Shown in pieces: positions 34,387-59,298 of a stretch of DNA of 64,000 bases; within the stretch, counting starts at the first letter, position 1; each line of letters begins with the position of its first letter. Position numbers and translations under genes: made by a program. Under the pieces are notes generated by a model. That model made no database searches and had not been told where the DNA came from. It worked only from the letters and a program-made list of their open reading frames with translations. Origin of the DNA: Opitutales bacterium (GTDB lineage: Bacteria; Verrucomicrobiota; Verrucomicrobiia; Opitutales; Seribacteraceae); contig JAOFTV010000005.1 in NCBI GenBank assembly GCA_028045305.1, positions 1 to 64,000 on the forward strand. Direction: 5' to 3'.

Positions 34387-34944
34387 ATGCCACCAATCGA
34401 TACCATACACTGGGAAAACATAAGGGATCGCTCCCCCAATTCTCTAGCTGAACTTTATGACGGATTTGCCGGAGCAATGTTTTCTTTGGCATTGGAAGTA
34501 TTGGGTGATCGTTGGGAAGCCGAAGAAGTAATTCAGGATGTATTTGCCTATGTTTGGAAAAAACCAGAAGCTTTTTCTCCAGCGAAAGGTAAATTTAGCA
34601 GTTGGTTACTTGTAATCACCAGAAACCGGAGCATTGATCGTGTCCGCTCGCGGAAACGTAAGGTTGTACGTGGTGAACCAATCGAAGTACTCAGCAACCG
34701 GCAAGACCTTGGTTCTAAAGATGGAGCGGAGGAGGCCTCCAAATCCGACGAGCGTTCGTTCTTACAGAGTGCTTTTAAACAATTGCCTGATGAACAAAGA
34801 GAAGTGATCGAACTTTCCTACTTTAAAGGACTCAATCACCTCGAAATATCGGAACAATTAAAACTCTCCCTCGGAACCGTAAAATCACGCATCCGTTTGG
34901 GCATGGAAAAACTTAAACGTGCCCTTTCTAATCTACGTTCATAA
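34387..34944 (+). CDS. ECF-type RNA polymerase sigma factor
   Basis: This 185-residue protein has sigma region 2 (LAELYDGFAGAMFSLALEVL, AEEVIQDVFAYVWKKPEAF, GKFSSWLLVITRNRSIDRVR) and region 4 (LPDEQREVIELSYFKGLNHL, LKLSLGTVKSRIRLGMEKLK). This is the two-region ECF layout. A strong ribosome-binding site AAGGAG at 34373-34378 precedes ATG 34387 by eight bases. The next gene starts 96 bases on and has an anti-sigma-like N-terminus, the usual arrangement. The signal and regulon are unknown. Confidence 0.95.
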   Translation: MPPIDTIHWENIRDRSPNSLAELYDGFAGAMFSLALEVLGDRWEAEEVIQDVFAYVWKKPEAFSPAKGKFSSWLLVITRNRSIDRVRSRKRKVVRGEPIEVLSNRQDLGSKDGAEEASKSDERSFLQSAFKQLPDEQREVIELSYFKGLNHLEISEQLKLSLGTVKSRIRLGMEKLKRALSNLRS

Positions 34945-36953: not shown

Positions 36954-36995
36954 AGGATCGGCTACCTGGTGGAAAAGCCGGTGGTTTGGACGGGA

Positions 36996-37451: not shown

Positions 37452-37525
37452 GGAATTTAATCTATCGTAGAACATAAAATGTTCAACCAACTTGACCATA
37501 TCCTTAAATCGCATAATTTAATCTT

Positions 37526-39348: not shown

Positions 39349-39602
39349 GGTACACATTGTAAAGATTACGAACCGAAAAGGAAACCACGACTTTTACAAG
39401 GTTGATATGCTTGGAAACGAATGAAACAGCAATTAGATACAAATAATGATTTTCAAATTGCGAAAAGCCAAGGATCGTGGAACTGCTGAGCATGTTTGAC
39501 TGCATGCCAATTTCACCTTTCTTTTGGTCAACTAAACACTCAGAGTCTTTTCAAATGCGGAAAAAAAGTGGAATGCATTTAAGAACACAGTAGTTTGTAT
39601 AT

Positions 39603-40930: not shown

Positions 40931-40983
40931 TTTTTATACTTTTGCGATTGATCCAACCCTACTTCCTGATCGATCTATAAACT

Positions 40984-41562
40984 GTGCGTATTTCTTTTCT
41001 TTTTACCTACCTTGCCATATTGGCTAGCTTACCGCTTATGGGATACGAGGCGATGCATGAAAAAACTCCGGTTGGAGAGATTAAGGTTCTCGAACTTCCT
41101 AAACGGATCGCTCTCGAAGCTAAGAGCCCCCAAGGTTATTTTTCTGAAAACAATGGATTGTTCCGCACTTTGTTTGGATACATATCGAAGCACGATCTAT
41201 CGATGACCACCCCAGTGGAAGCAGAAATTGAACCTGGCAAAATGCGTTTTTTTGTGGGTGAAAAAGATGCAGCCAAAAAACGCCCAAATACGGGTAATGT
41301 GGTAGTGATAAACCTTGACCCAATTACAGTCGTAGCGATTGGCATTCGGGGTAGTTACAACAGTGAAAACTTTCAAAAGAATGAAAAACTCCTACTTGAA
41401 TGGATCGATGAAAATCCGGATTATGAAACTAGTGGGACTGCTTATGCCGTGTACTGGGATGGTCCATTCATTCCGTGGTTATTAAAACGCTCGGAAGTTC
41501 ACCTTCCCATTCGTTATTCCCAAAAAGAATCTGAAAAGAATCAACCATCCAAAAAACAATGA
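40984..41562 (+). CDS. Exported SOUL-family heme-binding protein
   Basis: This 192-residue protein has a signal peptide (FLFTYLAILASLPLMG, then YEAM) and a SOUL/HEBP fold: EIKVLELPKRIALEAKSPQG, the GYISKHDLSMTTPVEAEIEP core, MRFFVG and YAVYWDGPFIPWLLKRSEVH. SOUL proteins bind heme or related hydrophobic tetrapyrroles; iron-ligand residues cannot be assigned here. It starts at GTG 40984 and overlaps the exported glutathione peroxidase gene by four bases, so the pair likely works in the periplasm. Confidence 0.9.
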   Translation: MRISFLFTYLAILASLPLMGYEAMHEKTPVGEIKVLELPKRIALEAKSPQGYFSENNGLFRTLFGYISKHDLSMTTPVEAEIEPGKMRFFVGEKDAAKKRPNTGNVVVINLDPITVVAIGIRGSYNSENFQKNEKLLLEWIDENPDYETSGTAYAVYWDGPFIPWLLKRSEVHLPIRYSQKESEKNQPSKKQ

Positions 41563-42092
41563 AATTCATCCCCTTGCTACTCGCATCTATCATGAGCACT
41601 GCATCCGCTTCCACTGTTTACGATCATCAACTCGTCGATATCGACGGTGAAAAAACCAAACTTTCCACCCATCAGGGAAAAGTAATGCTCTTGGTAAATG
41701 TGGCATCCCGGTGTGGATTTACTCGTCAGTACAAAGGGTTGGAAGAGCTCCACCAAACATATAAGGACAAAGGCTTGGTAGTCTGTGGCTTTCCCTGCAA
41801 TCAATTTGGCGGACAAGAACCTGGTACCGAAGCAGAAATCAAAGAGTTTTGTTCCACCAAATTTGGGGTATCTTTCCCGATGTATTCAAAAATTGATGTC
41901 AATGGACCAAACAGGCACCCCCTGTATGAATCGATTATTGGAGAATCGGGTCCGCTCGCAGGGAATGTAAAATGGAATTTTACTAAAATCCTCATTGGCA
42001 AAGACGGTAAACCGATCGACCGCTTTGGGAGCATGACCTTTCCAACCTCCAAGAAATTAATCAAAGCAATCGAGGCGGCTCTAGCTAAATAG
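41559..42092 (+). CDS. Exported glutathione peroxidase (Cys type)
   Basis: This 177-residue protein has a signal peptide (FIPLLLASIMSTASAS) and the GPx core: LLVNVASRCGFTRQYKGLEE with catalytic Cys52, VCGFPCNQFGGQEPGTE, and NVKWNFTKILIGKDG. It is the cysteine form, which usually uses thioredoxin rather than glutathione, and it should act outside the cytoplasm on lipid or hydrogen peroxides. It overlaps the SOUL gene by four bases (ATGA). Confidence 0.95.
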   Translation: MKFIPLLLASIMSTASASTVYDHQLVDIDGEKTKLSTHQGKVMLLVNVASRCGFTRQYKGLEELHQTYKDKGLVVCGFPCNQFGGQEPGTEAEIKEFCSTKFGVSFPMYSKIDVNGPNRHPLYESIIGESGPLAGNVKWNFTKILIGKDGKPIDRFGSMTFPTSKKLIKAIEAALAK

Positions 42093-42120
42093 AGGATTCT
42101 ACGCCAATAAAACGATTACG

Positions 42121-45272: not shown

Positions 45273-45293
45273 GATCATGCAGAAAATATGATC
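45273..45293. promoter_or_regulatory. Palindrome in the umuD/SDR divergent control region (possible operator)
   Basis: GATCAT (45273-45278) and ATGATC (45288-45293) are perfect inverted arms separated by nine bases, and another ATGATC occurs at 45306-45311. They sit in the 100 bases between umuD and the SDR gene, an A/T-rich stretch where both promoters must lie. It does not match the E. coli or Bacillus LexA box. Binding of LexA or another regulator is a guess. Confidence 0.4.
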
Positions 45294-45322
45294 TATAAAA
45301 AACAAATGATCGTTTTATTGTG

Positions 45323-46036
45323 ATGGAAATATCTAATCAATCCACCCCGCTAAAACATTTTATCGCCGGTGCATCCCGGGGAATCGGCCGATCCTTAGTT
45401 GATCAATCTATTGCTATGGGCCACGAAGTTTATGCCATCTCGCGTACTCCTCCAGAAACAGTACCCACGGGTTGCCATTGGATAAGCGGGGATGTTTCTG
45501 ATCCAAGTTCTTATACCGATCAATTACCCGATCAAATTGATGCCCTTACTTTTTGCCCAGGAAAAGTGGTGCTTGGCCCGCTGAAACGTCTGCGTTTCGA
45601 ACAGATGCTGGAAACTTATCAAACCAGTGTGCTTGATGCATTTACGCTAATCCAAGCAATTCTTCCCAAACTTGCCGGTTCCATCGTTTTATTTTCTTCG
45701 GTCGCCGCCCGAACTGGATTGCCCAATCACTGTGCCATCTCCGCGGCCAAATCGGGACTGGAAGGATTTGGAATTGCTCTTGCCGCGGAGCTCGCTCCCA
45801 AGGTGCGGGTAAATTTGATCGCCCCTACCCTGACCCCAACCGAAATGGGATTGGCCATGGTGGGGGGAGAAAAAATGATTCCCATGATCGAAGGCAGGCA
45901 TCCCCTGAAAAAATTACCATCGGTTGAAGAAGCGGCCGCAACTGCTCTCTTTCTTCATTCATCCGCGGCTGTTTCAATGACTGGACAAATTCTCAAGGTT
46001 GACGGTGGAATGTCCCGTGCCAAACTCCCTGGATGA
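45323..46036 (+). CDS. Atypical short-chain dehydrogenase/reductase (catalytic Tyr replaced)
   Basis: This 237-residue protein is SDR-like: HFIAGASRGIGRSLVDQS (cofactor loop), ALTFCPGKV in place of the NNAG motif, IVLFSSVAARTG with the catalytic Ser, then PNHCAISAAKSGLEGF. In the last motif the expected Tyr of YxxxK is Ile, while the Lys is kept. Such SDRs exist but their chemistry is unclear. It heads the photolyase unit, its stop overlapping the photolyase ATG by four bases. A role in making a pterin or flavin chromophore is speculation. ATG 45323 is preferred over GTG 45320. Confidence 0.88.
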   Translation: MEISNQSTPLKHFIAGASRGIGRSLVDQSIAMGHEVYAISRTPPETVPTGCHWISGDVSDPSSYTDQLPDQIDALTFCPGKVVLGPLKRLRFEQMLETYQTSVLDAFTLIQAILPKLAGSIVLFSSVAARTGLPNHCAISAAKSGLEGFGIALAAELAPKVRVNLIAPTLTPTEMGLAMVGGEKMIPMIEGRHPLKKLPSVEEAAATALFLHSSAAVSMTGQILKVDGGMSRAKLPG

Positions 46037-47487
46037 TCTCCACATCCTCTCCATCCAATCAGCGGGCCATCGTCTGGTTTCGCAAAGATCTTAGGCTATC
46101 CGACCATCCCGCCCTGGATGCCGCCCTGCAGGGTGGCATGGAAATTATTCCCGTATTTGTATGGGATGAAAAAGAAGGCGGCTCGTGGTCCCCCGGAGCT
46201 GCGTCACGCTGGTGGCTACATTATTCCCTCGAGAGCCTTGGTTCTTCTATTACCAAGGCGGGAGGAAAACTCTTACTTGTCCGGGGAAATGCAGCTGAGC
46301 AATTACCCAAAATTGCCCGGGCCCACCAAGCTGGACATATCCTTTACAGCCGGGCCTATGATCCTGCAGGCATTGCCACTCAGGAAGCAGTCGAAGAAGC
46401 CTGTGACTCCAGGGGTATTACCACCGAATCCTTTAATGCCTCCCTTCTTCAAGAACCCTGGGAAACCAAGAACGGAACAGGTAAACCCTTTCAGGTATTC
46501 ACCCCGTATTGGAGGAAGTCCCGAGCCATCATTTATCGGGAACCGGCAAGTTACGACCCCAAGAAACTTTCATTCGTCCAGCAAACTTCCTCCCCTCAAT
46601 CACTTACCGAGCTTGCTTTGCTTCCCGATCATCCATGGCATAATAAAATGGGTGCCCATTGGGAAGTATCGGAATCTGCGGCTCATCAACAGATCGAACG
46701 CACGGTTGAGGAAGTTACCCGTTCCTATGCCACCCGAAGAAATCATCCATCGGTCGATGGAACCTCCCGTCTATCTCCCTACCTTGCCTGGGGCCAGGTA
46801 AGCCCGCGGCAAATTTGCAAAGCGGTATTGCAGGCGGAAAACGAAGGCAGTCACCGTGGAGAAAATAAATTTCTGGTTGAAATTGGATGGCGGGAATTTT
46901 CCTACCATTTACTCTATCATTTCCCCACCATTCCCGACCAGCCCTTGCGCCCAAAGTATGCCAACTTCCCATGGCTTGATGATCCGGACAATTTGAAACG
47001 CTGGCAGTTTGGAAATACTGGATACCCCATGGTCGATGCCGGAATGCGTCAACTTTACGAGACCGGATGGATGCACAACCGTGTGCGTATGGTTGTTGCC
47101 TCCTTCCTGGTCAAACATCTCCTCCTACCCTGGCAGGATGGAGCCCGATGGTTTTGGGATACCCTGGTAGACGCTGATCTTGCCAGCAATACCCAGGGCT
47201 GGCAATGGGCAGCCGGATGCGGGGCGGATGCCGCTCCCTACTTCCGTATTTTCAATCCTATTACTCAGGGGACTAAATTTGATGCCCGGGGGGAATATGC
47301 CAAGCGTTGGATCCCAGAACTTGGCAACCTTCCTGCCAAGCATTTATTTAGCCCGTGGACGGCCCCTTCCTCCACCCTTTTGGAAAGTGGAGTTGAACTC
47401 GGGAACAACTACCCCGACCCCTGCGTAGATCATCCCGAGGCCCGGGCCCGGGCACTCGCTGCTCTTGCCACGCTCAAGCAACCATAA
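46033..47487 (+). CDS. phr: Class I deoxyribodipyrimidine photolyase/cryptochrome
   Basis: This 484-residue protein has an N-terminal antenna domain (AIVWFRKDLRLSDHPALDAA) and the FAD-binding helical domain with DGTSRLSPYLAWGQVSPRQI, ENKFLVEIGWREFSYHLLYH, GYPMVDAGMRQLYETGWMHN and NTQGWQWAAGCGADAAPYFR. These are the class I CPD photolyase residues for FAD, damaged DNA and the Trp electron chain. It repairs cyclobutane pyrimidine dimers with blue light. It is coupled to the SDR gene and followed 14 bases later by an FeS-type photolyase. Confidence 0.95.
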   Translation: MISTSSPSNQRAIVWFRKDLRLSDHPALDAALQGGMEIIPVFVWDEKEGGSWSPGAASRWWLHYSLESLGSSITKAGGKLLLVRGNAAEQLPKIARAHQAGHILYSRAYDPAGIATQEAVEEACDSRGITTESFNASLLQEPWETKNGTGKPFQVFTPYWRKSRAIIYREPASYDPKKLSFVQQTSSPQSLTELALLPDHPWHNKMGAHWEVSESAAHQQIERTVEEVTRSYATRRNHPSVDGTSRLSPYLAWGQVSPRQICKAVLQAENEGSHRGENKFLVEIGWREFSYHLLYHFPTIPDQPLRPKYANFPWLDDPDNLKRWQFGNTGYPMVDAGMRQLYETGWMHNRVRMVVASFLVKHLLLPWQDGARWFWDTLVDADLASNTQGWQWAAGCGADAAPYFRIFNPITQGTKFDARGEYAKRWIPELGNLPAKHLFSPWTAPSSTLLESGVELGNNYPDPCVDHPEARARALAALATLKQP

Positions 47488-47501
47488 AACCATTTCATTT
47501 A

Positions 47502-49046
47502 ATGGCATCCTCCCCTGTTCCCTCTCCCCGTCGCCTGCTCGTGGTTCTGGGGGATCAACTTGATTACGACCGCTTTCTCCCCGCCGATTTCGATGCTTCA
47601 TCCGATCTCTTTTGGATGGCAGAAGCGAGTGAAGAGTCCACCCATGTGCGATCGAACAAACACCGTATTGTTTGCTTTCTTGCAGCAATGCGGCATTTCC
47701 GAAATCATTTATCGGACAGTAAAATCCCTCTCCTTTACCATGAACTCGCAGAGGGAAACTCTTCCTTGAATCAACTACTTGCCGAGGATCTCAAAGCATT
47801 AAACCCAGAAATGGTCAGCTTGGTAAAACCCGGAGACCATCGGGTTGAAGAAGCCCTGCAAAAAACCTGTCATGGCCTCGGGGTTGCCTGGGAAGTTCGC
47901 GAGGATGAACACTTTCTTTGTTCACAATCTGAATTTGAGGATCATGCCCGGGGAAGAAAATCTTTGCGGATGGAATTTTTCTACCGGGAGATGCGACGAA
48001 AGCACGATGTATTGATGGATGGAAAAGACCCGGTTGGTGGAGGGTGGAATTTTGACAAGGAAAACCGCGAAAGTTTCGGAAAGCAAGGTCCCCCTCAATC
48101 TCCCAAGACCCGTGGCTGCCCGCCCGATGCCATAACCCAAGAAGTCATCGAATTAGTAAATCTTCGATTCTCTGACCACCCGGGCGACCTCAAACAATTT
48201 ATCTGGCCGGTCACCCCCAAACAGGCAGAACACGCACTTGATCAATTCATCAATGATTGCCTTCCCACCTTTGGCCGGTTTCAGGATGCGATGTGGACAG
48301 ACGAGCCCACCCTCTTTCATTCCCTTCTTGGATCTCCCATAAATTTACGCCTGCTCGACCCCCGAAAAGTCATCCGGGCGGCCGAGAAAGCTTACCAAGA
48401 AGATAGAGCCCCCCTGCCCGCAGTCGAGGGTTTCATCCGGCAAATCTTGGGCTGGCGAGAATATGTTCGGGGAATTTATCATTTACGCATGCCCGAATAT
48501 CGTGAACTAAATTTCCTGGAGGCCGACCGTGCACTGCCCGATTTCTTCTGGACGGGCAAAACAGATATGGCCTGTATGCGGGCTTCCCTGACTCAGGTAC
48601 TGGATACCGGATATGGTCACCACATTCAAAGATTAATGGTGGTTGGACTTTATTCCCTGCTCCACGGAGTAAGACCGGGCGAAATTAATGATTGGTTTCT
48701 TGCCAATTATGTCGATGCAGTCGACTGGGTGACCACTCCCAATGTTATTGGCATGTCTCAATTTGCCGACGGGGGAATCATGGCATCCAAACCCTATTCC
48801 GCGACCGGTGCTTACATCGACCGGATGAGCAATTATTGTAAGAACTGCCAGTACAAACCCAAGGAATCAGTTGGTCCAAACGCCTGTCCCTTTACCACTC
48901 TGTACTGGGACTTCCTCGACCGGCACCGCGAACGGCTCCGTGGAAATCAGCGTCTTTCTATGCAGATGCGTAACCTTGCCCGACTTTCGGAGGATAAACT
49001 CTCAGAGATTAGAAAAGCAGCAAGTTGCCTGCGTCATCCGTCTTAG
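47502..49046 (+). CDS. FeS-type bacterial cryptochrome/photolyase ((6-4) photolyase-like)
   Basis: This 514-residue protein belongs to the prokaryotic FeS-BCP group. N-terminal LLVVLGDQLDYDRFLPADF opens the antenna domain. The C-terminal half has IRQILGWREYVRGIYHLRMP, TGYGHHIQRLMVVGLYSLLH and the cluster cysteines: one in DMACMRASLTQVL and three in NYCKNCQYKPKESVGPNACP. Characterised members (Agrobacterium PhrB) repair (6-4) photoproducts, using FAD, a lumazine antenna and a 4Fe-4S cluster. It pairs with the class I enzyme to cover both main UV lesions. Its last 38 bases overlap the convergent DNA ligase gene. Confidence 0.94.
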   Translation: MASSPVPSPRRLLVVLGDQLDYDRFLPADFDASSDLFWMAEASEESTHVRSNKHRIVCFLAAMRHFRNHLSDSKIPLLYHELAEGNSSLNQLLAEDLKALNPEMVSLVKPGDHRVEEALQKTCHGLGVAWEVREDEHFLCSQSEFEDHARGRKSLRMEFFYREMRRKHDVLMDGKDPVGGGWNFDKENRESFGKQGPPQSPKTRGCPPDAITQEVIELVNLRFSDHPGDLKQFIWPVTPKQAEHALDQFINDCLPTFGRFQDAMWTDEPTLFHSLLGSPINLRLLDPRKVIRAAEKAYQEDRAPLPAVEGFIRQILGWREYVRGIYHLRMPEYRELNFLEADRALPDFFWTGKTDMACMRASLTQVLDTGYGHHIQRLMVVGLYSLLHGVRPGEINDWFLANYVDAVDWVTTPNVIGMSQFADGGIMASKPYSATGAYIDRMSNYCKNCQYKPKESVGPNACPFTTLYWDFLDRHRERLRGNQRLSMQMRNLARLSEDKLSEIRKAASCLRHPS

Positions 49047-50661
49047 TTCCATCCTCCCTTACCCGCTCTCCCATTTGGGCATAGCCGAGCAAGTTTTCCA
49101 GGGTGTCCACTTCATCGGGCTTTTTATCCTGTCGCCATCTTTGAATCCGTGGAAAACGCAGGGCCACGCCAGACTTGTGCCTGCCAGATGATCGGGCACC
49201 CTCAAACGCAATTTCAAAAACGATTCCCGGACGGACTGAACGAACCGGACCAAATTTCCCGGTAATGTTTTTACGAACATAGCGGTCGACCTCTTTTAAT
49301 TCTGCATCAGACAACCCGGAATAGGCCTTGGCCACCGTGACGAATTCTCCCTGCTGATCGAGGACTGCCAGGGTATAATCAGAATAAATATTTGCTCGTT
49401 TACCATGGCCAAATTGTGCACCCACCACCACCATATCCGCAACATAGGGATCGACCTTCCACTTATACCAGTCCCCTTTTACCCGGCCAGATGAATAGAT
49501 AGAATCCGCCCGTTTGAGCATCAACCCCTCCACTCCCCGATCCCTGGATTCCTCGCGCTGCCTGGCAAGTTTCTCCCAGTCCGTAGATTCTACGGGCATA
49601 GAAAGTTGCAGAGGAAACCCTCCGGGTAATTCTGCAAGCATGGATTCTAACCTTTTGCGGCGATCAAGAAATGGGAGGGTTCTCATATCCACACCCTCCA
49701 TCTTTAAAAGATCATAAGCCATGAAACGGACCGGTTCTTTTTTTAGGACTGAAGGCCCAGGTTCCTTTCTACCTAACCGCTTTTGCAAGCGACTGAACGG
49801 GCGCATACCCTCTTGACCCCAGGCGAGAATTTCTCCGTCTATGGCCAGTCCAGTAGGCAAATGCGGGGAAAGGTTTAATAATTCCGGAAAAGATTCGCCG
49901 ACCGATTCATCCCCCCGTGTCCATAACATCCCCCCGTTTTCCTCGTTTAAAAATTGGCATCGTATCCCATCCCATTTCCATTCCGCCCACCAGTCTTTTA
50001 AATCGCCTAAAGAGTTAGGTTCTTCCTGTAAGGGACTCGCTAAACAAAACGGGAAGGGACGGCACCATGAATCCTCTGGTCTTTCATCGCCCACAATCTG
50101 TTCGAATTTTCGTATTCCAGGGTCCCAATCTCCGGAGATCCGCTGAGCGATAATTGCCGGATCAACCTGTCCGACCTCGGCCAGGGCCTTGCATAAATTC
50201 CCCCGGGATACCCCGATACGAAAGCCCCCGGTCAATAATTTATGAAAGGGTAAAAGGTCTATTGGTCGCAAACGATGCCACGCTCTTCTCAACGCTTCTG
50301 CCTTTTCACTCCTGTCCGCATGAGCCAAAGGAAGCAGGATTTCTTCGACCACTTTGCTTAAGCTGATAGATTCAGCTTTTTTATTTCCTCCAATTAAAAG
50401 CGACAAAGTTTCGGCCAAATCCCCCACCCGTTCGTAACACTCGTCAATCAACCAAACCGGCCAGCCTGAGCGTTGAGATGCCCACTCCCGCAACTCTCCC
50501 GTCTTGACCACGCCTTTGATCCGATTGCCGGCAAGAAACCAACTTGCCCAACTGGCATCTTTCTCCGGGGCTTGTTCAAAATAGTTTACCATTCGGGCAA
50601 TCCGCTCTCCTGTCTTGGTCATTTTGTCCAAGTCATAAAATAATTCGGAAAATCCTTTCAT
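49009..50661 (-). CDS. ATP-dependent DNA ligase (exonuclease-associated type)
   Basis: This 550-residue ligase has an N-terminal DNA-binding domain (FSELFYDLDKMTKTGERIAR, KLLTGGFRIGVSRG), the nucleotidyltransferase domain with Lys of EWKWDGIRCQF (adenylation site), LAIDGEILAW, VEGLMLKRADS and WYKWKVDPYVADMVVV, and an OB fold. It belongs to the group encoded next to an MBL-fold exonuclease. ATG 50661 follows a good AGAGGTGA ribosome-binding sequence (50666-50673), so the longer frame to 50760 is rejected. Helicase and phosphoesterase partners often found in such clusters are absent here. Confidence 0.94.
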   Translation of the reverse strand: MKGFSELFYDLDKMTKTGERIARMVNYFEQAPEKDASWASWFLAGNRIKGVVKTGELREWASQRSGWPVWLIDECYERVGDLAETLSLLIGGNKKAESISLSKVVEEILLPLAHADRSEKAEALRRAWHRLRPIDLLPFHKLLTGGFRIGVSRGNLCKALAEVGQVDPAIIAQRISGDWDPGIRKFEQIVGDERPEDSWCRPFPFCLASPLQEEPNSLGDLKDWWAEWKWDGIRCQFLNEENGGMLWTRGDESVGESFPELLNLSPHLPTGLAIDGEILAWGQEGMRPFSRLQKRLGRKEPGPSVLKKEPVRFMAYDLLKMEGVDMRTLPFLDRRKRLESMLAELPGGFPLQLSMPVESTDWEKLARQREESRDRGVEGLMLKRADSIYSSGRVKGDWYKWKVDPYVADMVVVGAQFGHGKRANIYSDYTLAVLDQQGEFVTVAKAYSGLSDAELKEVDRYVRKNITGKFGPVRSVRPGIVFEIAFEGARSSGRHKSGVALRFPRIQRWRQDKKPDEVDTLENLLGYAQMGERVREDGTKTDDAGNLLLF

Positions 50662-50671
50662 TTTTTCACCT

Positions 50672-51661
50672 CTACTCTTCTCCCGTACGCTCTCCCGAGC
50701 CATCAAGCATGGAAGCATCAACTCCACACTCCTGTAAATAACGGGCAAGAGGCTCGCCATTTCCGTGGATTAATTTTATGCATTCAGCACCTGTTCCCTT
50801 GATCACTTCCAGTAAACCGGACCAATCTGCATGATCAGACAGTACAAACCCACGGTCCAGGTTACGGCGTCTGCGGGCTCCCCGTACGGCCATCCATCCA
50901 GAAGCAAACCCTCGGCTGGCACCCTTGAATCGTCTCGTCCAACCAGCATCCTCCACCGCCGGAGGGGCCACAATCATTGAACCCGCCCATTCTCCCGATC
51001 CTTCTTTGGGTTTTTGCACTCGGGGAAACTGTACACCACATTTTTCATACACCGGAAGAAAAGGGTGAACTGCCCCGTGAGCAAAAATTGGCCCAATTGA
51101 AGAATCGAGTCCCCGCAGTACCCGTTGGGCCTTACCCAGGGAGTAGGCAAAAAGCATCGATGGGCGACCAGCCTCCACATTTTCCTGCCACCAGGCATTG
51201 ATCTGCTGGTGGATAATTTCTTCCTCCTGCCAGCGATAAACGGGCAGGCCAAATGTACACTCGCTGACAAAGACATCGCACTTTACAAGCTCGAACGCTT
51301 CGCAACTTTGGTCAGGTTGTGGCTTGTAATCTCCACTCACCACCCAGACCCGGCCACCCACCTCCACTCGAATCTGAGAAGAGCCCAGAATATGTCCGGC
51401 TGGGTGAAATGAAACATGAGCATCTCCAATCTTGCACACTTTTCCATAGGCGATGCCCTCTGCCCGGATTTCTTGACCAAGTCGTAATTTCAGAAGAGGC
51501 AGACAACTTTCCGAAACTAAATAATTCCCATGCCCCGGACGGGCATGGTCGCTATGAGCATGAGTGACCAAGGCTTTATCCACCCGCCCCCGAGGATCGA
51601 TAAAAAAGCCACCCGCAGGACAGTACAGTCCTTCTGGCCGCACGATCATGGGTTCATCCAT
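50672..51661 (-). CDS. Ligase-associated MBL-fold DNA exonuclease
   Basis: This 329-residue protein has the metallo-beta-lactamase motif ALVTHAHSDHARPG, further metal ligands in FHPAGHILGSSQI and VVSGDYKP, and the beta-CASP-like features VSECTFGLPVYRW and FVLSDHADWSGLL. It is the SNM1-type exonuclease encoded with ATP-dependent ligases. Its stop lies ten bases before the ligase start, so both form an operon. Together they probably repair double-strand ends or crosslinks. It is divergent from the sigma-factor operon, separated by about 120 bases. Confidence 0.93.
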   Translation of the reverse strand: MDEPMIVRPEGLYCPAGGFFIDPRGRVDKALVTHAHSDHARPGHGNYLVSESCLPLLKLRLGQEIRAEGIAYGKVCKIGDAHVSFHPAGHILGSSQIRVEVGGRVWVVSGDYKPQPDQSCEAFELVKCDVFVSECTFGLPVYRWQEEEIIHQQINAWWQENVEAGRPSMLFAYSLGKAQRVLRGLDSSIGPIFAHGAVHPFLPVYEKCGVQFPRVQKPKEGSGEWAGSMIVAPPAVEDAGWTRRFKGASRGFASGWMAVRGARRRRNLDRGFVLSDHADWSGLLEVIKGTGAECIKLIHGNGEPLARYLQECGVDASMLDGSGERTGEE

Positions 51662-51783
51662 AAGATAAACCGGTGAGAACCTCCGAAAGGAAAATACAAT
51701 CTTTCCAAGTTCGAATAAAAAAATCGGAATTTTGATTTCGCATGATCTTAAAATATAAAACCTTCGTTCTATTAATTGTTATG

Positions 51784-52722
51784 GCACCATATAGCTACAC
51801 GCAAACGAATGATTCCTCCGATCCGATCGGCCGTTTCATTTCCGACCGTTCACGCATGGCTCCCCCAACCAAGGAAGAGTACGATCAATTATTTGGAGAC
51901 TTTAATAAAGGCTCCGAGTCTGCAAAGCAGGAATTGATTGAAAGACATATCCGATTGGTTGCATCGATCGCCCTTAAATTCCGTCAGGTAAATGTCCCAA
52001 TGGAGGATGTAATGGCTGAGGGAATTCACGGACTAATTATTGCGATCGAAAAATTTGATCATACCAGGGGAATCAAACTCAGCACCTATGCCGCTTGGTG
52101 GATTCGTCAGCGCATCCAGCGTTTTGTCAGCAAAATGGCCGAGGCGGTTTCTATTCCTCACGATGTTTCTCAAGGCAAAAGAAAAGAGAATAATTTACGC
52201 ACAGAGCTTCAAATTTCCCTAGGGCGCGATCCTACAGATGATGAAGTAAAAGCTGCACTTGATGATACCCGAAACTTATCTGGAAGGGTTAAATATGCCC
52301 CGTCCGGTACTATGTCTCTCGATGAACCTTTTTCTGAAGATTCCGACCATTCCCTCATCGACATAATGACTGATGAGAATGAGTCCCAACAATCTTACCG
52401 CGAGGAAGGTTCTTTGGCAGATGACATTCGGGTGGCCTTGGGTTTTTTAGATCAAAGAGAACGCAAAGTATTAGGTATGCGCTTCGGTCTAACCAAGGAC
52501 AAAGAACCTATGAAATTAGATGATATCGCAGAAATTCTTAATGTATCTGGTGAGCGTGTCCGACAGTTAGAAGCACTCGGTTTGAGAAAATTACGGGCCG
52601 TTGTGATGAACAATGGCAAACTGGATTTTCGCAACCTAGACAAGTTAGTTGGTATCGAATTGCGTGGTAAAACCAAGATGAGTCCTTTACAACTCTCTCT
52701 AATCTTGGACAATGCCGCGTAA
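51784..52722 (+). CDS. Sigma-70 family RNA polymerase sigma factor (group 2/3-like)
   Basis: This protein of about 312 residues has region 1.2 (DPIGRFISDRSRMAPPTKEE), region 2 (ERHIRLVASIALKFRQVNVP, EGIHGLIIAIEKFDHTRGIK, STYAAWWIRQRIQRFV), region 3 (SIPHDVSQGKRKENNLRTEL) and region 4 (LGFLDQRERKVLGMRFGLTK, VSGERVRQLEALGLRKLR). This is a RpoD-like layout without region 1.1. ATG 51784 fits; an open frame reaches ATG 51742 but would add a spurious hydrophobic N-terminus. Its stop is three bases before the desaturase ATG, so it leads the lipid operon and may control it and the photolyase genes. That control is inference. Confidence 0.93.
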   Translation, partial: APYSYTQTNDSSDPIGRFISDRSRMAPPTKEEYDQLFGDFNKGSESAKQELIERHIRLVASIALKFRQVNVPMEDVMAEGIHGLIIAIEKFDHTRGIKLSTYAAWWIRQRIQRFVSKMAEAVSIPHDVSQGKRKENNLRTELQISLGRDPTDDEVKAALDDTRNLSGRVKYAPSGTMSLDEPFSEDSDHSLIDIMTDENESQQSYREEGSLADDIRVALGFLDQRERKVLGMRFGLTKDKEPMKLDDIAEILNVSGERVRQLEALGLRKLRAVVMNNGKLDFRNLDKLVGIELRGKTKMSPLQLSLILDNAA

Positions 52723-52725
52723 TTC

Positions 52726-53637
52726 ATGATTTCTAGCTTATCTAAGTGGGTCTGCCCTCCCCCGGAGACCCTAGACGAACCTGATTCCACTCAAGATAAA
52801 GTGGAATGGTTTCGTTGTGTCCCGTACATCCTCATTCATCTGGGTGCTCTGTTAGTCTTCTCAACTCCGTTTGCATGGCCTTGTTTGATCGTACTTTTAC
52901 TCTCCTACTCGGCACGCATGTTTGCGATCACTGCCTTTTACCACCGTTATTTTTCTCACCGTACTTTTCATACAGGACGAATCGTACAGTTCATAGGAGC
53001 CTTTATCGGTTGTGCATCCGGACAAAGAGGACCTCTTTGGTGGGCCGCACACCATCGTAGACATCACCGGCATTCTGACACCGATAAAGATTCGCACTCT
53101 CCCCACCACAAAAACTTCCTTTGGAGTCATACCCTTTGGTTTATGACTGATTATGCCCTCCCCACTTTTCTCAAGGAAATTCCTGATTGGGCAAAATTCA
53201 AGGAACTTCGCTTCATCAATCGTTTTGATTGGATCGCTGTGGTCGTGCTCGCTTTGGGATGTTATCTTTTGGGTGAATGGTCGCTCTTTCAAACTTGGAC
53301 TGGAATAAACGGCTTAGGCATGTTGGCTTGGGGATTCTTTCTACCCACTGTTCTTCTCTATCATGCCACCTTCTCGGTAAATTCGCTCACCCATATGTTT
53401 GGTAAAAAGAAGTACGAAACCGGTGATGAAAGCAGAAATAACTGGTTTGTTTCTATCATTACATTTGGTGAGGGATGGCACAACAACCACCACTTCTTTC
53501 CCGGCTCTGCTCGACAGGGTTTTTTACCCTGGGAGATTGACCCTACTTTTTACGGACTGCGTATCCTTTCTCTTTTTGGTCTGGTTCGCAATTTACGTCC
53601 CGTGCCCGCATGGGTAAAAGACAAAGCGAATCAGTAA
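52726..53637 (+). CDS. Delta-9-type acyl-CoA/acyl-lipid desaturase
   Basis: This 303-residue membrane desaturase has the three His boxes: FYHRYFSHRTFH, WAAHHRRHHRHSDTDKDSH and GEGWHNNHHFFPGSARQ. Hydrophobic helices flank them. It is a non-heme diiron enzyme that introduces a double bond into a saturated acyl chain. It lies three bases after the sigma gene and 31 bases before the FAD oxidoreductase. In this context it probably supplies the monounsaturated chain on which the downstream methyltransferases act. Confidence 0.93.
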   Translation: MISSLSKWVCPPPETLDEPDSTQDKVEWFRCVPYILIHLGALLVFSTPFAWPCLIVLLLSYSARMFAITAFYHRYFSHRTFHTGRIVQFIGAFIGCASGQRGPLWWAAHHRRHHRHSDTDKDSHSPHHKNFLWSHTLWFMTDYALPTFLKEIPDWAKFKELRFINRFDWIAVVVLALGCYLLGEWSLFQTWTGINGLGMLAWGFFLPTVLLYHATFSVNSLTHMFGKKKYETGDESRNNWFVSIITFGEGWHNNHHFFPGSARQGFLPWEIDPTFYGLRILSLFGLVRNLRPVPAWVKDKANQ

Positions 53638-53668
53638 GCGATCTTGTGATCGTCCCCTGGCGGACATC

Positions 53669-54907
53669 ATGAAATTTGCAATCATCGGTTCGGGCATATC
53701 TGGCCTAGCCTGTGCACACTTGCTCAAAAAAAACCACGAGGTCGTACTTTTCGAGGCTGCAAACAAACCAGGCGGACATGTTAACACCGTAGATGTTAAA
53801 GGGCGTACCGGAGATTATCGGGTGGATACCGGATTTATTGTCTTTAACGAACAAAACTATCCTAACTTTGTCCGCCTGCTCAAAAGTCTCGATGTACAAT
53901 CACAACCCACACGTATGGGCTTTTCCGTAAGATCGGAAAGAACTGGGATTGAATATAGCGGAGAATCAATCCTTGGGTTATTTGGCGGCTTTAAGAACCT
54001 GACCGACCCCAAGCATTGGGGAATGGTTCAGGATCTTTTACGCTTTCACCGACTGGCCGAAGGAAGTGGAAATGAAGACGAAACCGTGGGAGAATTTATT
54101 TCCCGTCATCGTTTTGGAAAACGATTTGCTGAGGCATTCTTACTTCCCCTTGGCTCCGCCCTTTGGTCATGCTCTGTGGATCGATTTTCTTCTTTCCCCA
54201 TCGAGTTCCTCACTGATTTTCTGTCCAATCATAATATGTTACAGGCCTACAATCGGCCGGTCTGGAGGGTTCTGCAGGGAGGATCAAGAACCTATGTCGA
54301 TAAAATCGTGCAGGGACTTGGAGATCGTTTGCGACTTTCCACTCCCATTCGTTCCGTTGAACGTTCCGAAAATGGGGTTACCCTCAGCCTACCAGATGGA
54401 AGCACCCAATGGTTCGACCAAGCCATCCTTGCCTGCCATGCTGATCAATCCTTAAAAATACTCGATGGTGCGGAGAGTGAAGAGATCGAACTTTTGCAGA
54501 AGTTTCCCTATGAACAAAATAAAGTCTGTTTACATTCAGACGATCGGTTACTCCCCCGTCGTACTTCTGCCCGAGCAAGTTGGAATGCTTACCTGCCCAA
54601 AGAAAAAAAAGACCATTCCGTAGTCACCTACGACATGAACATTTTACAAAACCTGCCAACCAAAGAGCCCTTTTGCGTATCACTCAACCAGGAATCCTCC
54701 ATCGATCCATCCTTACGACACGCAGATTTCACTTTCGAACACCCCACCTACCATCCCGGCCGTAAGTCCGCTCAGGCCATGCATCCCTCCTTTATCCAGC
54801 GTCGGGGAATATCCCTTTGCGGGGCTTATTGGGGCTATGGGTTTCATGAAGATGGATTGGCCAGTGCTCTTCGGGTGTGCCAATCATTTGGCGAAGAATT
54901 GGGATGA
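53669..54907 (+). CDS. FAD-dependent NAD(P)-binding oxidoreductase of the CFA/DUF1365 cluster type
   Basis: This 412-residue protein opens with KFAIIGSGISGLACAHLLKK and VLFEAANKPGGHVNTVDVKG, a Rossmann FAD motif with GGH in the amine-oxidase style. Further features are VDTGFIVFNEQNYPNFVRLL, MGFSVRSERTGIEYSG, and RGISLCGAYWGYGFHEDGLA near the C-terminus. This is the COG2907-like protein regularly found beside DUF1365 and CFA-type methyltransferases. In the furan fatty-acid pathway of Rhodobacter a related type of enzyme dehydrogenates the methylated acyl chain; that role here is inference. Its stop overlaps the next ATG by four bases. Confidence 0.9.
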   Translation: MKFAIIGSGISGLACAHLLKKNHEVVLFEAANKPGGHVNTVDVKGRTGDYRVDTGFIVFNEQNYPNFVRLLKSLDVQSQPTRMGFSVRSERTGIEYSGESILGLFGGFKNLTDPKHWGMVQDLLRFHRLAEGSGNEDETVGEFISRHRFGKRFAEAFLLPLGSALWSCSVDRFSSFPIEFLTDFLSNHNMLQAYNRPVWRVLQGGSRTYVDKIVQGLGDRLRLSTPIRSVERSENGVTLSLPDGSTQWFDQAILACHADQSLKILDGAESEEIELLQKFPYEQNKVCLHSDDRLLPRRTSARASWNAYLPKEKKDHSVVTYDMNILQNLPTKEPFCVSLNQESSIDPSLRHADFTFEHPTYHPGRKSAQAMHPSFIQRRGISLCGAYWGYGFHEDGLASALRVCQSFGEELG

Positions 54908-55665
54908 ATAGTTGTCTGTATTTTGGTGAGGTATCTCACCACCGAAAATCTCCCAAAAAGCATGATTTAAGCTACCAAGTATACATGGGTCATCTCTTTC
55001 TTGATGAATTGGCAGATATTTTTACCGGGCGTTTTTTTTGGTCAATCGATCGTTCTAACTTTGGATGTTTCTTTCGATCAGACTATCACCGCCCCGAAAT
55101 TCCTGATCTTTCCAAAGCGGTAAGGAATACCATGTCCGAACAGTTAAAAAAGGAATTTTCCGGTCCGGTATCGATCATTACTCACTTGCGCACCTTTGGA
55201 TACTGTTTCAATCCGGTAAGTTTTTATTTTTTATGGAATGAAGAAAAAACCAAACCGGTCGCGATGATGACCGAGATTACCAATACTCCATGGGGAGAAT
55301 GTTATTCCAAGTGCTTTGCCTGGGAAAGTGAAGCGGAAAATAGCCGGATGGACTACGAATTTCGCAAGGAATTTCATGTCTCTCCATTTATTGGTATGGA
55401 GGTCGAGTACGACTGGCGCTTTCGTTTACCCGCCGAACGTTTCCAGGCGGACATGATTTTACGGGAAAAAGAAAAAACTTTTTTTACCGCTCACCTCCAG
55501 CTTAGCCGGCGTCCTCTTGACGGACGGAACCTCGCTTGGGCACTGGGCAGGTTCCCATTTATGACCCTGAATGTAGTCCGGGCAATTTATTGGAATGCAT
55601 TGCTCTTGCGACTCAAGGGTTGCCCTTTTTATCCACACCCCAAACATTTGTCTGATCCTTCTTAG
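54904..55665 (+). CDS. DUF1365 family protein
   Basis: This 253-residue protein has the DUF1365 signature: SCLYFGEVSHHRKSPKKHDL with SYQVYMGHLFLDEL, SNFGCFFRSDYH, VSIITHLRTFGYCFNPVSFY with FLWNEE, and a central GECYSKCFAWESE. Its biochemical role is unknown, but the gene is nearly always beside the FAD oxidoreductase and a CFA-type methyltransferase. ATG 54904 overlaps the preceding stop (ATGA), so the longer frame from 54877 is rejected. Confidence 0.92.
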   Translation: MNSCLYFGEVSHHRKSPKKHDLSYQVYMGHLFLDELADIFTGRFFWSIDRSNFGCFFRSDYHRPEIPDLSKAVRNTMSEQLKKEFSGPVSIITHLRTFGYCFNPVSFYFLWNEEKTKPVAMMTEITNTPWGECYSKCFAWESEAENSRMDYEFRKEFHVSPFIGMEVEYDWRFRLPAERFQADMILREKEKTFFTAHLQLSRRPLDGRNLAWALGRFPFMTLNVVRAIYWNALLLRLKGCPFYPHPKHLSDPS

Positions 55666-55668
55666 TTG

Positions 55669-56934
55669 ATGAAAGCAAGCGCCCCCGCCTCGATTTCCCC
55701 GCCCCTTCGCTCGACCGGCGAAGACTTTGGACTGTTTGGACGTCTACTGCTCAAACAATTTGCTAAAATTAAACAGGGTCGATTAATTCTTGAATTTTCC
55801 GGTCGCGAACATGTTTTTGGAGATAGCCAGTCTCCCTCCCCCATAAACATTACGGTATTAAATCCGGTATTTTTTCGCAAAGCCTGCCTTGGTGGTTCCC
55901 TTGGTGTGGCCGACAGTTATTCAGCGGGCGACTGGGAAACCAATGACCTGGTCGGTTTGTTCCGTTTATTCTTACAAAACTTTGAAGTGATGGACGACCT
56001 GGAAGGCGGTTGGGCATCCCTACTGAACAAGCTTGCCCGCTGGGGATATATGATCGGGCAGAAAAACACCGTCAAAGGAAGCCGGCGGAACATCGCCCTG
56101 CATTACGACTTGGGCAATGATTTTTATAAGCTCATGCTCGACCCGACGATGACTTATTCCTGCGGTATCTTCGCCACCGAAGAAACCACCCTGGAAGAGG
56201 CATCCCTTGCTAAGTATGATCGCATCATCGAACAGCTTGATATTAAGGACGGGCAAAAAGTGTTGGAGATCGGATGTGGATGGGGAGGCTTTGCTAAACG
56301 CCTTATCGATACCACCGAGGCCATTTGGACGGGTACCACAATTTCCAAAGAGCAGCATGCTTATGCCCGAAAGGTGATCAAAGAGTCTGGCCATGCCGAT
56401 CGGGCAAATTTGCTCATGGATGACTATCGTACTCTTAGCGGTTCCTACGATCGCATTGTCTCCATCGAAATGATTGAAGCGGTGGGTCATGAATATTTAC
56501 CCACTTACTTCTCCAAAATTTCCGACCTTCTTGCTCCGGACGGAGCCGCTTTGGTTCAGGCAATCACCATGCCTGACCACCGCTACGATCAGTATTTAAA
56601 AGAAGTAGACTACATACGAACCCGGGTATTTCCCGGCAGTTGTGTACCATCTGTATCTGCAATGATCTCAGCGGTGTCCAAAAAATCCGACCTCCGACCC
56701 ACCGGGGTGCAGGGTATTGGATACCATTACGCCCGTACTCTGCGGGAATGGCGCCTGCGCTTTGTCGAAAATGAGGAAGAAATCAAATCCCTAGGCTACG
56801 ACGATGCCTTCCGTCGTGCATGGATCTATTACCTTTGCTACTGTGAGGCAGGCTTTGAGGAAGGGTATACCGGAGACATCCATTTGCTTTTAACCAAGCC
56901 AAATTGCAAAGTGGGCAAAGGGTTTCCGCAATGA
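55669..56934 (+). CDS. CFA-synthase-family methyltransferase, copy 1
   Basis: This 421-residue protein has the full cyclopropane fatty-acid synthase layout. An N-terminal lipid-binding domain (VFFRKACLGGSLGVADSYSA) precedes the SAM domain with NIALHYDLGNDFYKLMLDPT, MTYSCGIF, KVLEIGCGWGGFAKRL, GTTISKEQHAYARKV and VSIEMIEAVGHEYLPTYFSK. It transfers a methyl or methylene group from SAM to a double bond of a membrane lipid. ATG 55669 lies three bases after the DUF1365 stop (a TTG at 55666 is also in frame). The end overlaps the DUF2878 ATG. Confidence 0.94.
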   Translation: MKASAPASISPPLRSTGEDFGLFGRLLLKQFAKIKQGRLILEFSGREHVFGDSQSPSPINITVLNPVFFRKACLGGSLGVADSYSAGDWETNDLVGLFRLFLQNFEVMDDLEGGWASLLNKLARWGYMIGQKNTVKGSRRNIALHYDLGNDFYKLMLDPTMTYSCGIFATEETTLEEASLAKYDRIIEQLDIKDGQKVLEIGCGWGGFAKRLIDTTEAIWTGTTISKEQHAYARKVIKESGHADRANLLMDDYRTLSGSYDRIVSIEMIEAVGHEYLPTYFSKISDLLAPDGAALVQAITMPDHRYDQYLKEVDYIRTRVFPGSCVPSVSAMISAVSKKSDLRPTGVQGIGYHYARTLREWRLRFVENEEEIKSLGYDDAFRRAWIYYLCYCEAGFEEGYTGDIHLLLTKPNCKVGKGFPQ

Positions 56935-57455
56935 ATAAACATCCAAGCTTCCTTATCGATTTAGTCGTTTTTCAAGTCGCCTGGTTTGCATGTGTTCTCG
57001 GATCGGCAACCGAATACCCATTTCTCTTTCCCTTTGCTGGATTTCTTTTCGTCCTTTGCCGGATTGCCACGACCCAGCGTTTCCGTTCATCCTTTCCTTT
57101 TCTTCTCGCTTCGGTCGCACTGGGCATGGTTGGAGATTCCCTGCTTGTTCACCTGGAAATGCTCGCTTTTTATGCCGACCCCACAGTGGGCGGTGCCCCG
57201 CTATGGATGATTTTTCTCTGGGCCAATTTCGGGCTTATGCTCAGGCCCTTATTTTCCTGGTTCCTGCAAAATAATTCCCGATGCCTGATCGGATTTGGTC
57301 TTGGCGGATTGATCGCTTATGCCTCCGGTTGGCAACTTGAACGCCTCGCGTTTACCTCCGAGTGGATATCTGCCCTCTCCATCGCAATGGAATGGGCAAT
57401 CGCCGGACTGATCCTTCGAAAACTTCACCATAAGTACCGAAATATTGATCGATGA
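56931..57455 (+). CDS. DUF2878 membrane protein
   Basis: This 174-residue protein has about five hydrophobic helices and matches DUF2878: FLIDLVVFQVAWFACVLGSA, SVALGMVGDSLLVHLEMLAF, GGAPLWMIFLWANFGLML and ASGWQLERLAF. Its Gly-Asp and Trp-Ala-Asn residues in the membrane are family features. No function is known; it occurs in CFA/DUF1365/DUF1295 clusters. It overlaps both neighbours by four bases (ATGA at each end), so it is translated as part of the coupled run. Confidence 0.88.
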   Translation: MNKHPSFLIDLVVFQVAWFACVLGSATEYPFLFPFAGFLFVLCRIATTQRFRSSFPFLLASVALGMVGDSLLVHLEMLAFYADPTVGGAPLWMIFLWANFGLMLRPLFSWFLQNNSRCLIGFGLGGLIAYASGWQLERLAFTSEWISALSIAMEWAIAGLILRKLHHKYRNIDR

Positions 57456-58252
57456 ATAACCTGGATCTTCTGCTCTATGGACAGGCAGGAGCATCGGTGG
57501 TGATGCTCATTGGTTGGTTAATCGCCCTATCCATTCGTAACACTTCTTATGTTGATGTGTTATGGGCCTATGGTGTGGGCATACTTGGCTTGGTTTATCT
57601 CTATTTCATCCAGAAAGAATGCCACCCCGCCAGGCATGCCCTACTCCTCGGACTGCTCGGAGTATGGTCAGCCCGTTTGGGCACCCATCTGTTGCGAAGG
57701 TGCTGGGGGAAACCGGAGGATGCACGGTACGCATACCTGCGCGATTACTTGGGCAAAAATGCAAACTTCGGATTCTTTCTCTTTTTTCAGGTGCAAGCAT
57801 TTTGGATCGTTTTATTTGCCAGCCCTTTTCTCATCCTCGGAAGGAATTCGTCCGACCTCGCCTGGTTTGATCACCTGGGCATGTTTATTTGGATTTTAGG
57901 ATTTGTAGGGGTCAGCTTGGCGGATAAACAATTACGCCTTTTTAAAAACACCCCCGGACGTTCTCGCGATGAAGTTTGCGATTCCGGGCTATGGAAATAT
58001 TCACGACACCCCAATTATTTTTTCGAATGGATTCTTTGGCTGGGCTACCTACCCATGGGAATACTCTCTACCAATGGTGCCTGGTTATTGATCGTACCCC
58101 CAATCCTCTATCTCTTCCTTACCCGTATAACCGGCATTCCCTTTGTGGAGGCACGTAAATTGGAGGTGAGCGGAGATGCCTACCGGTCCTATGTCGAGCG
58201 TACCCGATCTTTCTTCCCTTGGTTCCCTAAATCAAAAAACTCTCATCAATGA
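57452..58252 (+). CDS. DUF1295 (steroid 5-alpha-reductase-like) membrane protein
   Basis: This 266-residue polytopic protein belongs to the DUF1295/SRD5A-like group. Landmarks are SYVDVLWAYGVGILGLVYLY, LGVWSARLGTHLLRRCWGKP, EDARYAYLR and the reductase-like end DSGLWKYSRHPNYFFEWILW with LGYLPMG. The Tyr-Ser-Arg-His-Pro-Asn-Tyr motif is the cofactor-binding site of C-14 and 5-alpha reductases and isoprenylcysteine methyltransferases. A reductase of an unsaturated lipid is plausible; not proven. ATGA overlaps join it to both neighbours. Confidence 0.9.
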   Translation: MNNLDLLLYGQAGASVVMLIGWLIALSIRNTSYVDVLWAYGVGILGLVYLYFIQKECHPARHALLLGLLGVWSARLGTHLLRRCWGKPEDARYAYLRDYLGKNANFGFFLFFQVQAFWIVLFASPFLILGRNSSDLAWFDHLGMFIWILGFVGVSLADKQLRLFKNTPGRSRDEVCDSGLWKYSRHPNYFFEWILWLGYLPMGILSTNGAWLLIVPPILYLFLTRITGIPFVEARKLEVSGDAYRSYVERTRSFFPWFPKSKNSHQ

Positions 58253-59298
58253 GCCTTACTGATTCTTTCATTCAATTAAGCGAACGCGGTTTGGTGCCTG
58301 ACTTTCTCATCCGTGCAGGCATACGCAACCTTTGTAAAAAACGCCTCACCCAGTGTCGGGTGGATGATTGCGAGGCCAATGCCGAATTGGCGGAAGAATA
58401 TTTGCGCAACGTCGACCAATCCGCTCTGGCCGTTGAAACCGACAAGGCCAATGAACAACACTATGAAGTACCGGCGGAGTTTTACCACTTGGTACTGGGT
58501 AAAAATTTAAAGTACAGCTGTTGCTGCTACGAGCCCGGCACCCATGGGCTTGATCAAGCGGAGGACCGTGCCCTTGAACTCACCTGCAAAAGAGCTGACC
58601 TGCAGGATGGCCAGGAGATTTTAGAGCTTGGATGCGGATGGGGTTCCCTCTCCCTATGGATGGCACAACACTTTCCAAAATCACATATCCGTTCGGTTTC
58701 CAACTCCCATTCCCAACGCGAATACATCATGGGGACCGCCAAGGAGCGTGGTTTAAACAACCTCGAGGTAGTCACTGCAGATGTTAATGCTTTTAAGCCC
58801 GATCAATCCTATGACCGAGTGGTCTCGGTTGAAATGTTCGAACATGTGCGCAATCACCGTCAACTCTTCCAACAAATTTTCAACTGGTTAAATCCAGGTG
58901 GAAAACTTTTTACTCATGTATTTTGCCACCGTTCCACCTCTTATCCCTTCGAAGTCGAAGGGGAGGACGATTGGATGTCCAAACATTTTTTTAGTGGTGG
59001 CACCATGCCCGCGGACGAACTCTTTTTACGGATTTGCGGAGGCCTCGAGCTCGAGAGCCGCTGGCGATGGTCGGGCAGGCACTACGCGGAAACCTCCGAG
59101 GATTGGTTGCGTAACCTCGATCAAAACAAATCAGCCGCCCTGCGCATCTTCGAGAATGATCAAACACCCGCCGAGGCAAAGAAAATTTTCCACCGATGGC
59201 GCATTTTCTTTCTCGCCTGTGCCGAGACCTTTGCCTACGCCAAGGGTCAGGAGTGGTGGGTCTCCCACTATCTCTTCGCCAAGCCGGCCAGAGGCTAA
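58249..59298 (+). CDS. CFA-family SAM methyltransferase, copy 2 (divergent)
   Basis: This 349-residue methyltransferase is related to CFA synthases but divergent: EQHYEVPAEFYHLVLGKNLK, YSCCCYEPGTHGLDQAEDRA, ILELGCGWGSLSLWMAQHFP, SVSNSHSQREYIMGTAKERG and VVSVEMFEHVRNHRQLFQQI. The N-terminal domain is shorter than in copy 1. It differs from cyclopropane synthases in several loops and looks like the non-cyclising methyltransferase seen in DUF1295 clusters. A methyl transfer to a mono-unsaturated chain (as by UfaM) is a reasonable guess. It closes the operon. Confidence 0.9.
   Translation: MSLTDSFIQLSERGLVPDFLIRAGIRNLCKKRLTQCRVDDCEANAELAEEYLRNVDQSALAVETDKANEQHYEVPAEFYHLVLGKNLKYSCCCYEPGTHGLDQAEDRALELTCKRADLQDGQEILELGCGWGSLSLWMAQHFPKSHIRSVSNSHSQREYIMGTAKERGLNNLEVVTADVNAFKPDQSYDRVVSVEMFEHVRNHRQLFQQIFNWLNPGGKLFTHVFCHRSTSYPFEVEGEDDWMSKHFFSGGTMPADELFLRICGGLELESRWRWSGRHYAETSEDWLRNLDQNKSAALRIFENDQTPAEAKKIFHRWRIFFLACAETFAYAKGQEWWVSHYLFAKPARG

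Follow-up and report, generated by a model that had tools for sequence, protein, structure and literature searches.

A sigma factor-led operon in marine Opitutia with candidate furan fatty acid and photo-oxidative stress functions and a predicted ECF-type promoter

In the Rhodobacter sphaeroides-type furan fatty acid pathway, UfaM methylates vaccenate, the flavin adenine dinucleotide (FAD) protein UfaD then desaturates the product, the DUF1365 protein UfaO forms the furan with O2, and FufM attaches a second methyl group; in Rhodopseudomonas palustris, RPA2571-2570-2569 were shown to be sufficient for furan fatty acids (Lemke et al. 2020, PMC7380195). FufM resembles AT4G33110 of Arabidopsis (PMC10940516). 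The singlet-oxygen extracytoplasmic function (ECF) sigma factor of R. sphaeroides transcribes rpoHII, and RpoHII controls about 145 genes (PMC6852236). The RpoE-ChrR promoter consensus is TGATCC-N16-CGTA (PMC5507510), and RpoE-ChrR promoters of Shewanella have also been published (PMC4336711). Here, we analyzed a 64,000-nt stretch of DNA from an Opitutales bacterium (Verrucomicrobiota, class Opitutia; contig JAOFTV010000005.1, positions 1 to 64,000; hereafter the window), in which a sigma-70 family factor (SIG) leads seven putative lipid-modification genes. We consider it probable that this operon produces a membrane fatty acid that is methylated and most likely of the dimethyl-furan type, as part of a light or singlet-oxygen response, and that an ECF sigma factor controls the operon, including SIG.

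A sequence-only reading of the window had described eight same-strand genes here. Open reading frame and profile searches confirmed all eight on the plus strand, with the named domains and in the order SIG, desaturase (DES), FAD amine-oxidase family protein (FAD), DUF1365, a first cyclopropane fatty acid (CFA) synthase-type methyltransferase (CFA1), DUF2878, DUF1295, and a second such methyltransferase (CFA2) (Table 1). The spacing was also as described, with gaps of 3 nt between SIG and DES and 31 nt between DES and FAD, followed by ATGA overlaps at 54904, 56931, 57452, and 58249, four of the last five junctions. The start of SIG had to be moved, as the ATG lies at 51781 and position 51784 is codon 2. 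An alternative ATG at 51742 is unlikely to be used because the predicted −10 element lies downstream of it.

Searching relatives, we found all eight genes in this order in 18 loci, which belong to four genera of one marine Opitutia family; in three of the 18, CFA2 is cut by a contig end. One more family locus lacks DUF2878 only, and the remaining family loci are interrupted by contig ends. Because eight genes are collinear in 18 loci and SIG is 49-72% identical in the other genera of the family, this order is not due to chance.

Alignment of the upstream regions revealed the motif TGATC[CT]-N16-CG[TA][TA], with a variable spacer sequence, just 5′ of the SIG ATG in 24/24 family loci. The same motif precedes the operon of a short-chain dehydrogenase/reductase (SDR) gene and photolyase genes in 17 of 18 loci with 16-nt spacing and in one with 17-nt spacing, and it precedes the gene for a SOUL heme-binding protein in 8 of 18 family loci. 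Other gene starts of the surrounding island showed no motif, apart from rare single matches, and none was found upstream of the ligase-associated exonuclease gene. In 731 kb of DNA from the family, a spacing of 16 nt gave 72 matches compared with 8-22 at other spacings, counts that are not independent, as many of the loci are related or overlapping. In the window's own assembly (2.32 Mb, 77% complete), a pattern search for the extended motif TGATCY-N16-CGWTNTAT returned exactly three matches, all on the plus strand and within 11 kb, where ~0.3 would be expected by chance (an estimate for even base composition). These three matches directly precede SOUL (40984), SDR (45320), and SIG (51781), and the three operons would start nearly leaderless. 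The motif has the 16-nt spacing of the ECF11 RpoE-ChrR promoters, with T in most cases instead of A as the fourth −10 base. Plasmids that bear ChrR served as a control and carry the motif between their ECF and FAD genes. A Burkholderia plasmid has TGCATCC...CGTA before its DUF1295, FAD, and ECF genes, alongside a SigK/RskA-like pair.

According to the sequence-only reading, ECF and ChrR genes are missing here and an RpoD-like sigma factor replaces them. Only the part concerning ChrR stood: no ChrR gene was found, whereas an ECF gene is encoded in the window and in the same conserved island. This ECF and the SIG operon occupy opposite ends of the island across the family, and clear ECF orthologs were present in 24/31 family genomes searched. 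Of the organism's own ECFs compared, the island ECF was nearest to ECF11/ECF19 and SigK-like references; it forms its own clade beside the ECF11 and ECF19 sets rather than within ECF11. SIG is missing from two related genomes, G339 and G344, that carry both the ECF and the lipid operon, and G339 has motif-like sites before the glutathione peroxidase (GPX) gene, before the anti-sigma gene, and ~175 bp upstream of the desaturase gene. These genomes suggest that the ECF and the motif are independent of SIG and that the ECF, rather than SIG, reads the motif. SIG therefore fits better as a second tier under regulation, a target of the ECF rather than its replacement.

SIG reached the cut-off of no curated sigma family, with the RpoD and RpoS models scoring best, and it has no region 1.1. 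By overall sequence, it is not an RpoH (26% to E. coli RpoH). Its −35 recognition helix is of the RpoH type (VSAERVRQLE), reading VSGERVRQLE in 19/24 and V/ISAERV/IRQ in 5/24 SIG loci. The conserved C-terminal tail RGKTKMSPLELSL, which extends ~35 residues past region 4.2, is specific to the family (f1), the only one in which we found SIG; within a sample of 195 genomes of the phylum, a sigma search (E 1e-45) detected SIG in none but that of the window itself. The parallel with RpoHII would be functional, not one of family membership.

Alternatively, SIG itself could read the TGATC-N16-CGWT promoters as the master of an autoregulated lipid and photolyase regulon, in line with the sequence-only reading, with the nearby ECF employed elsewhere. 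SIG stands first in the operon, with which it is strictly conserved, and its recognition residues differ from those of the primary sigma factor. Moreover, the ECF gene has no clear motif copy in the window's genus; rpoE-chrR operons elsewhere are autoregulated. We nevertheless regard this alternative as unlikely, as the motif has an ECF architecture close to that of the published ECF11 promoter, occurs in ChrR clusters that have no SIG, and has its counterparts in G339, where the ECF is present and SIG is not.

We then considered the lipid chemistry. The FAD oxidoreductase, DUF1365, and Cfa-type methyltransferase of the furan pathway occur together at this locus, and the order FAD-DUF1365-CFA1 is that of RPA2571-2570-2569. 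For comparison with UfaM, UfaD, and UfaO, proxies from ChrR plasmids were used, and the methyltransferase clades were taken from a quick tree. The nearest PDB relatives of CFA1 are CFA synthases. In the tree, CFA1 fell into one clade with methyltransferases that are linked to DUF1365 in ChrR clusters, and E. coli Cfa lay outside it. In 36/36 CFA1-type sequences, Gln replaces His266, the bicarbonate-site residue of Cfa. The best solved relative of CFA2 is 6gkv, a coclaurine N-methyltransferase (1.9e-72, compared with 2.5e-25 for any CFA synthase); CFA2 retains the His266-equivalent histidine but sits in a separate coclaurine N-methyltransferase-like clade. Neither enzyme grouped with the plain cyclopropane synthase, as the CFA1 and CFA2 clades were separate from E. 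coli Cfa with support of 98 and 100. Because CFA2 is nearest to coclaurine N-methyltransferase and FufM resembles AT4G33110, which is of the same type, we interpret CFA2 as FufM-like, with CFA1, beside DUF1365, as the UfaM-like enzyme. This reverses the earlier suggestion, in which the second methyltransferase was the UfaM.

An AlphaFold model of the DUF1365 protein (pLDDT 93) has a β-barrel and a long helix and weakly resembles nitrobindin and fatty-acid-binding-like barrels (E 2e-4 to 3e-2), which offers a lead on the cofactor of UfaO.

We also consider it improbable that the pathway ends short of the furan, yielding methyl-branched or methylene fatty acids or a DUF1295-reduced product, with DUF1365 and FAD acting on another substrate. 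In favor of such a stop, the characterized furan pathway includes neither DUF1295 nor DUF2878, and furan synthesis did not require three genes of the RSP1087-1091 operon in R. sphaeroides (PMC7380195); against this, UfaD and UfaO types adjoin a UfaM-type enzyme in the furan-sufficient order. A plain cyclopropane fatty acid pathway assisted by accessory genes, which would fit the match of both methyltransferases to the CMAS family, is very unlikely in view of their separate clades, the Gln at His266 in CFA1-type sequences, and the coclaurine N-methyltransferase affinity of CFA2.

In the furan mechanism that we favor, the desaturase would supply a cis-monounsaturated chain, to which CFA1 would add a methyl branch. 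The FAD protein would desaturate the branched chain, DUF1365 would insert O2-derived oxygen and close the furan ring, and CFA2 would add the second methyl group, with DUF1295 and DUF2878 as putative accessory membrane proteins. The ECF would be held by the adjoining anti-sigma-like protein until photo-oxidative stress frees it, and it would then transcribe the SOUL-GPX, SDR-photolyase, and sigma-lipid operons via the TGATC[CT]-N16-CG[TA]T promoters. SIG, switched on with the lipid genes, may spread the response to further genes, like RpoHII below RpoE in R. sphaeroides. Homology, gene order, promoter type, and neighbors all agree in supporting the furan or methylated fatty-acid and photo-oxidative stress operon that the sequence-only reading had put forward as a candidate for Verrucomicrobiota.

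Besides the missing motif before the ECF gene, several points weigh against this mechanism. The −10 element is CGTT or CGAT, not the published CGTA. No target promoter for SIG was found, and 7 of the 31 family genomes have no clear ECF ortholog, some of them being poorly complete. The ChrR cupin (PF12973) was detected in 1/37 family genomes (G312, possibly contamination) and in none of the window's genus. Enzyme orthology is argued from neighbors, literature, and structural relatives.

Table 1. Predicted promoters and genes of the sigma-lipid operon and its island (window coordinates)
Feature	Coordinates	Strand	Remarks
Predicted ECF-type promoter of sigma-lipid operon	51743..51772	+	TGATCT-N16-CGTTCTAT; ends 8 nt before SIG ATG
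ECF-type promoter before SDR-photolyase operon	45289..45318	+	Motif match
ECF-type promoter before SOUL-GPX	40949..40978	+	Motif match
SIG, sigma-70 family factor, 313 aa	51781..52722	+	Sigma70 r2/r3/r4 domains; proposed second-tier sigma
DES, fatty acid desaturase	52726..53637	+	PF00487 4.5e-24
FAD amine-oxidase family protein, UfaD-type	53669..54907	+	PF01593 6.7e-30; adjoins DUF1365 and CFA1 as in UfaD clusters
DUF1365, UfaO-type	54904..55665	+	PF07103 4.6e-66
CFA1, UfaM-type S-adenosylmethionine methyltransferase	55666..56934	+	CMAS 7.8e-81; start TTG 55666 or ATG 55669
DUF2878 small membrane protein	56931..57455	+	PF11086 1.7e-27
DUF1295, steroid-reductase-like membrane protein	57452..58252	+	PF06966 2.2e-61
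CFA2, FufM/coclaurine N-methyltransferase-like methyltransferase	58249..59298	+	CMAS 2.3e-41
ECF sigma factor, proposed master regulator	34387..34944	+	~17 kb from sigma-lipid operon
Anti-sigma-like protein	35041..36288	+	NF052375 2.3e-5 on residues 9-71; conserved Cys-containing C-terminal domain
SOUL heme-binding protein and glutathione peroxidase	40984..42092	+	PF04832 2.4e-15, PF00255 6.1e-43
SDR, photolyase/cryptochrome PHR1, DPRP photolyase PHR2; proposed co-regulated operon	45320..49046	+	
Ligase-associated exonuclease and ATP-dependent DNA ligase, divergent from SIG	49009..51661	-	TIGR04122, TIGR04120

The island is syntenic in the family, with losses in some genera, and runs ECF-anti-sigma-DUF2071-...-SOUL-GPX-...-UmuC/LexA-SDR-PHR-ligase/exonuclease-SIG operon. 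The photolyases noted next door to the operon were confirmed as two, joined by the SDR gene. In genus g156 (loci L040, L042, L044, L045, and others), a distant second photolyase/cryptochrome (27-34% to PHR1) takes the place of the DPRP photolyase PHR2. The ligase and exonuclease genes lie between the photolyases and the SIG operon, and a related exonuclease with a helicase partner adjoins a ChrR-furan cluster of Phyllobacterium (L080). The interval 33874-45222 also encodes DUF2071, an SRPBCC-like protein, an FAD amine oxidase, pirin, an AlkB-like oxygenase, a pyrroloquinoline quinone-type repeat protein, and the UmuC/LexA-like pair, all family-syntenic.

The C-terminal 200 residues of the anti-sigma-like protein are its best conserved part and include conserved cysteines (FYLCRDQxKIMRASF...CGxFFxGPxERCVEFAEYDxNxYCLANL). 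This domain gave no Pfam or PDB sequence match. A histidine-kinase identity of this domain was not supported by the profile comparison (probability of 0.2%), and an AlphaFold model of the protein was unusable (pLDDT 41).

The seven-gene lipid order itself is not new. Among the best 80 named genomic loci, it was complete without SIG in 11 proteobacterial loci, for example in Kangiella taiwanensis, Aquimonas voraii, Chiayiivirga flava, and Rudaea sp., and SIG led the cassette in four, all from Opitutia. The desaturase, which the sequence-only reading took for an addition made here, leads the same order commonly in Gammaproteobacteria. An Acinetobacter sp. WY4 plasmid carries desaturase-FAD-DUF1365-CFA1-DUF1295-CFA2 beside a two-component system, with a photolyase nearby. 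The cassette was also found on a 5.4-Mb record labeled as a Klebsiella pneumoniae plasmid (L082, CP125156.1), a size that suggests a mislabeled chromosome. Local regulators near the cassettes differ and include MerR, two-component systems, an ECF with ChrR, and a SigK/RskA-like pair. LitR/CarH-type control was set aside for our locus: MerR genes lie near proteobacterial cassettes, and we saw no such gene within this operon or on either side of it.

Together, these data would bring open-ocean Verrucomicrobiota lacking ChrR into the range of the furan fatty acid and singlet-oxygen stress system. Our literature search found no paper connecting Verrucomicrobiota with furan fatty acid synthesis. 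The data name a precise, testable three-operon regulon and correct the methyltransferase roles. The ECF-to-second-sigma cascade would be an independent arrangement, and it raises a direct experimental question: does such control need ChrR, and what does the alternative sensor detect? As a bolder possibility, which we consider somewhat less likely than not, pelagic Opitutia may have evolved their own hard-wired two-tier singlet-oxygen response, in which the Cys-bearing anti-sigma, as a new type of redox or photo-oxidation sensor, stands in the place of ChrR and the ECF drives, in one transcript, furan lipids and a family-specific second sigma factor with its RpoH-like −35 helix and unique C-terminal tail.

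Compared with known systems, the enzyme gene order is identical to that of the gammaproteobacterial cassettes of Acinetobacter, Xanthomonas, Kangiella, Aquimonas, and Rudaea, desaturase-FAD-DUF1365-CFA-(DUF2878)-DUF1295-CFA2, but those lie near two-component, MerR, or SigK/RskA-like regulators and have no group-2-like sigma gene leading them. With the furan pathway of R. sphaeroides (Cereibacter) and R. palustris, our locus shares the core FAD, DUF1365, and methyltransferase genes, a FufM-like second methyltransferase, a singlet-oxygen-type promoter, and photolyases. It differs in uniting these enzymes with a desaturase, DUF2878, and DUF1295 in a single operon headed by a sigma factor, in belonging to Verrucomicrobiota, and in having a product predicted from genes. 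The likeness to the RpoE-ChrR (ECF11) regulon lies in the TGATC-N16-CG promoter and in the predicted targets, namely photolyase, SDR, and furan fatty acid genes and a second sigma factor; in contrast, the family's ECF is paired with an unrelated long anti-sigma. Unlike RpoHII, SIG is encoded inside the lipid operon. In Chlamydomonas, CFA1, CFA2, DUF1365, DUF1295, SOUL, and GPX5 genes are induced together by singlet oxygen under SAK1 (PMC4067076), which supports the photo-oxidative stress theme and provides an independent link for DUF1295, although there the regulator is eukaryotic and the genes are unlinked.

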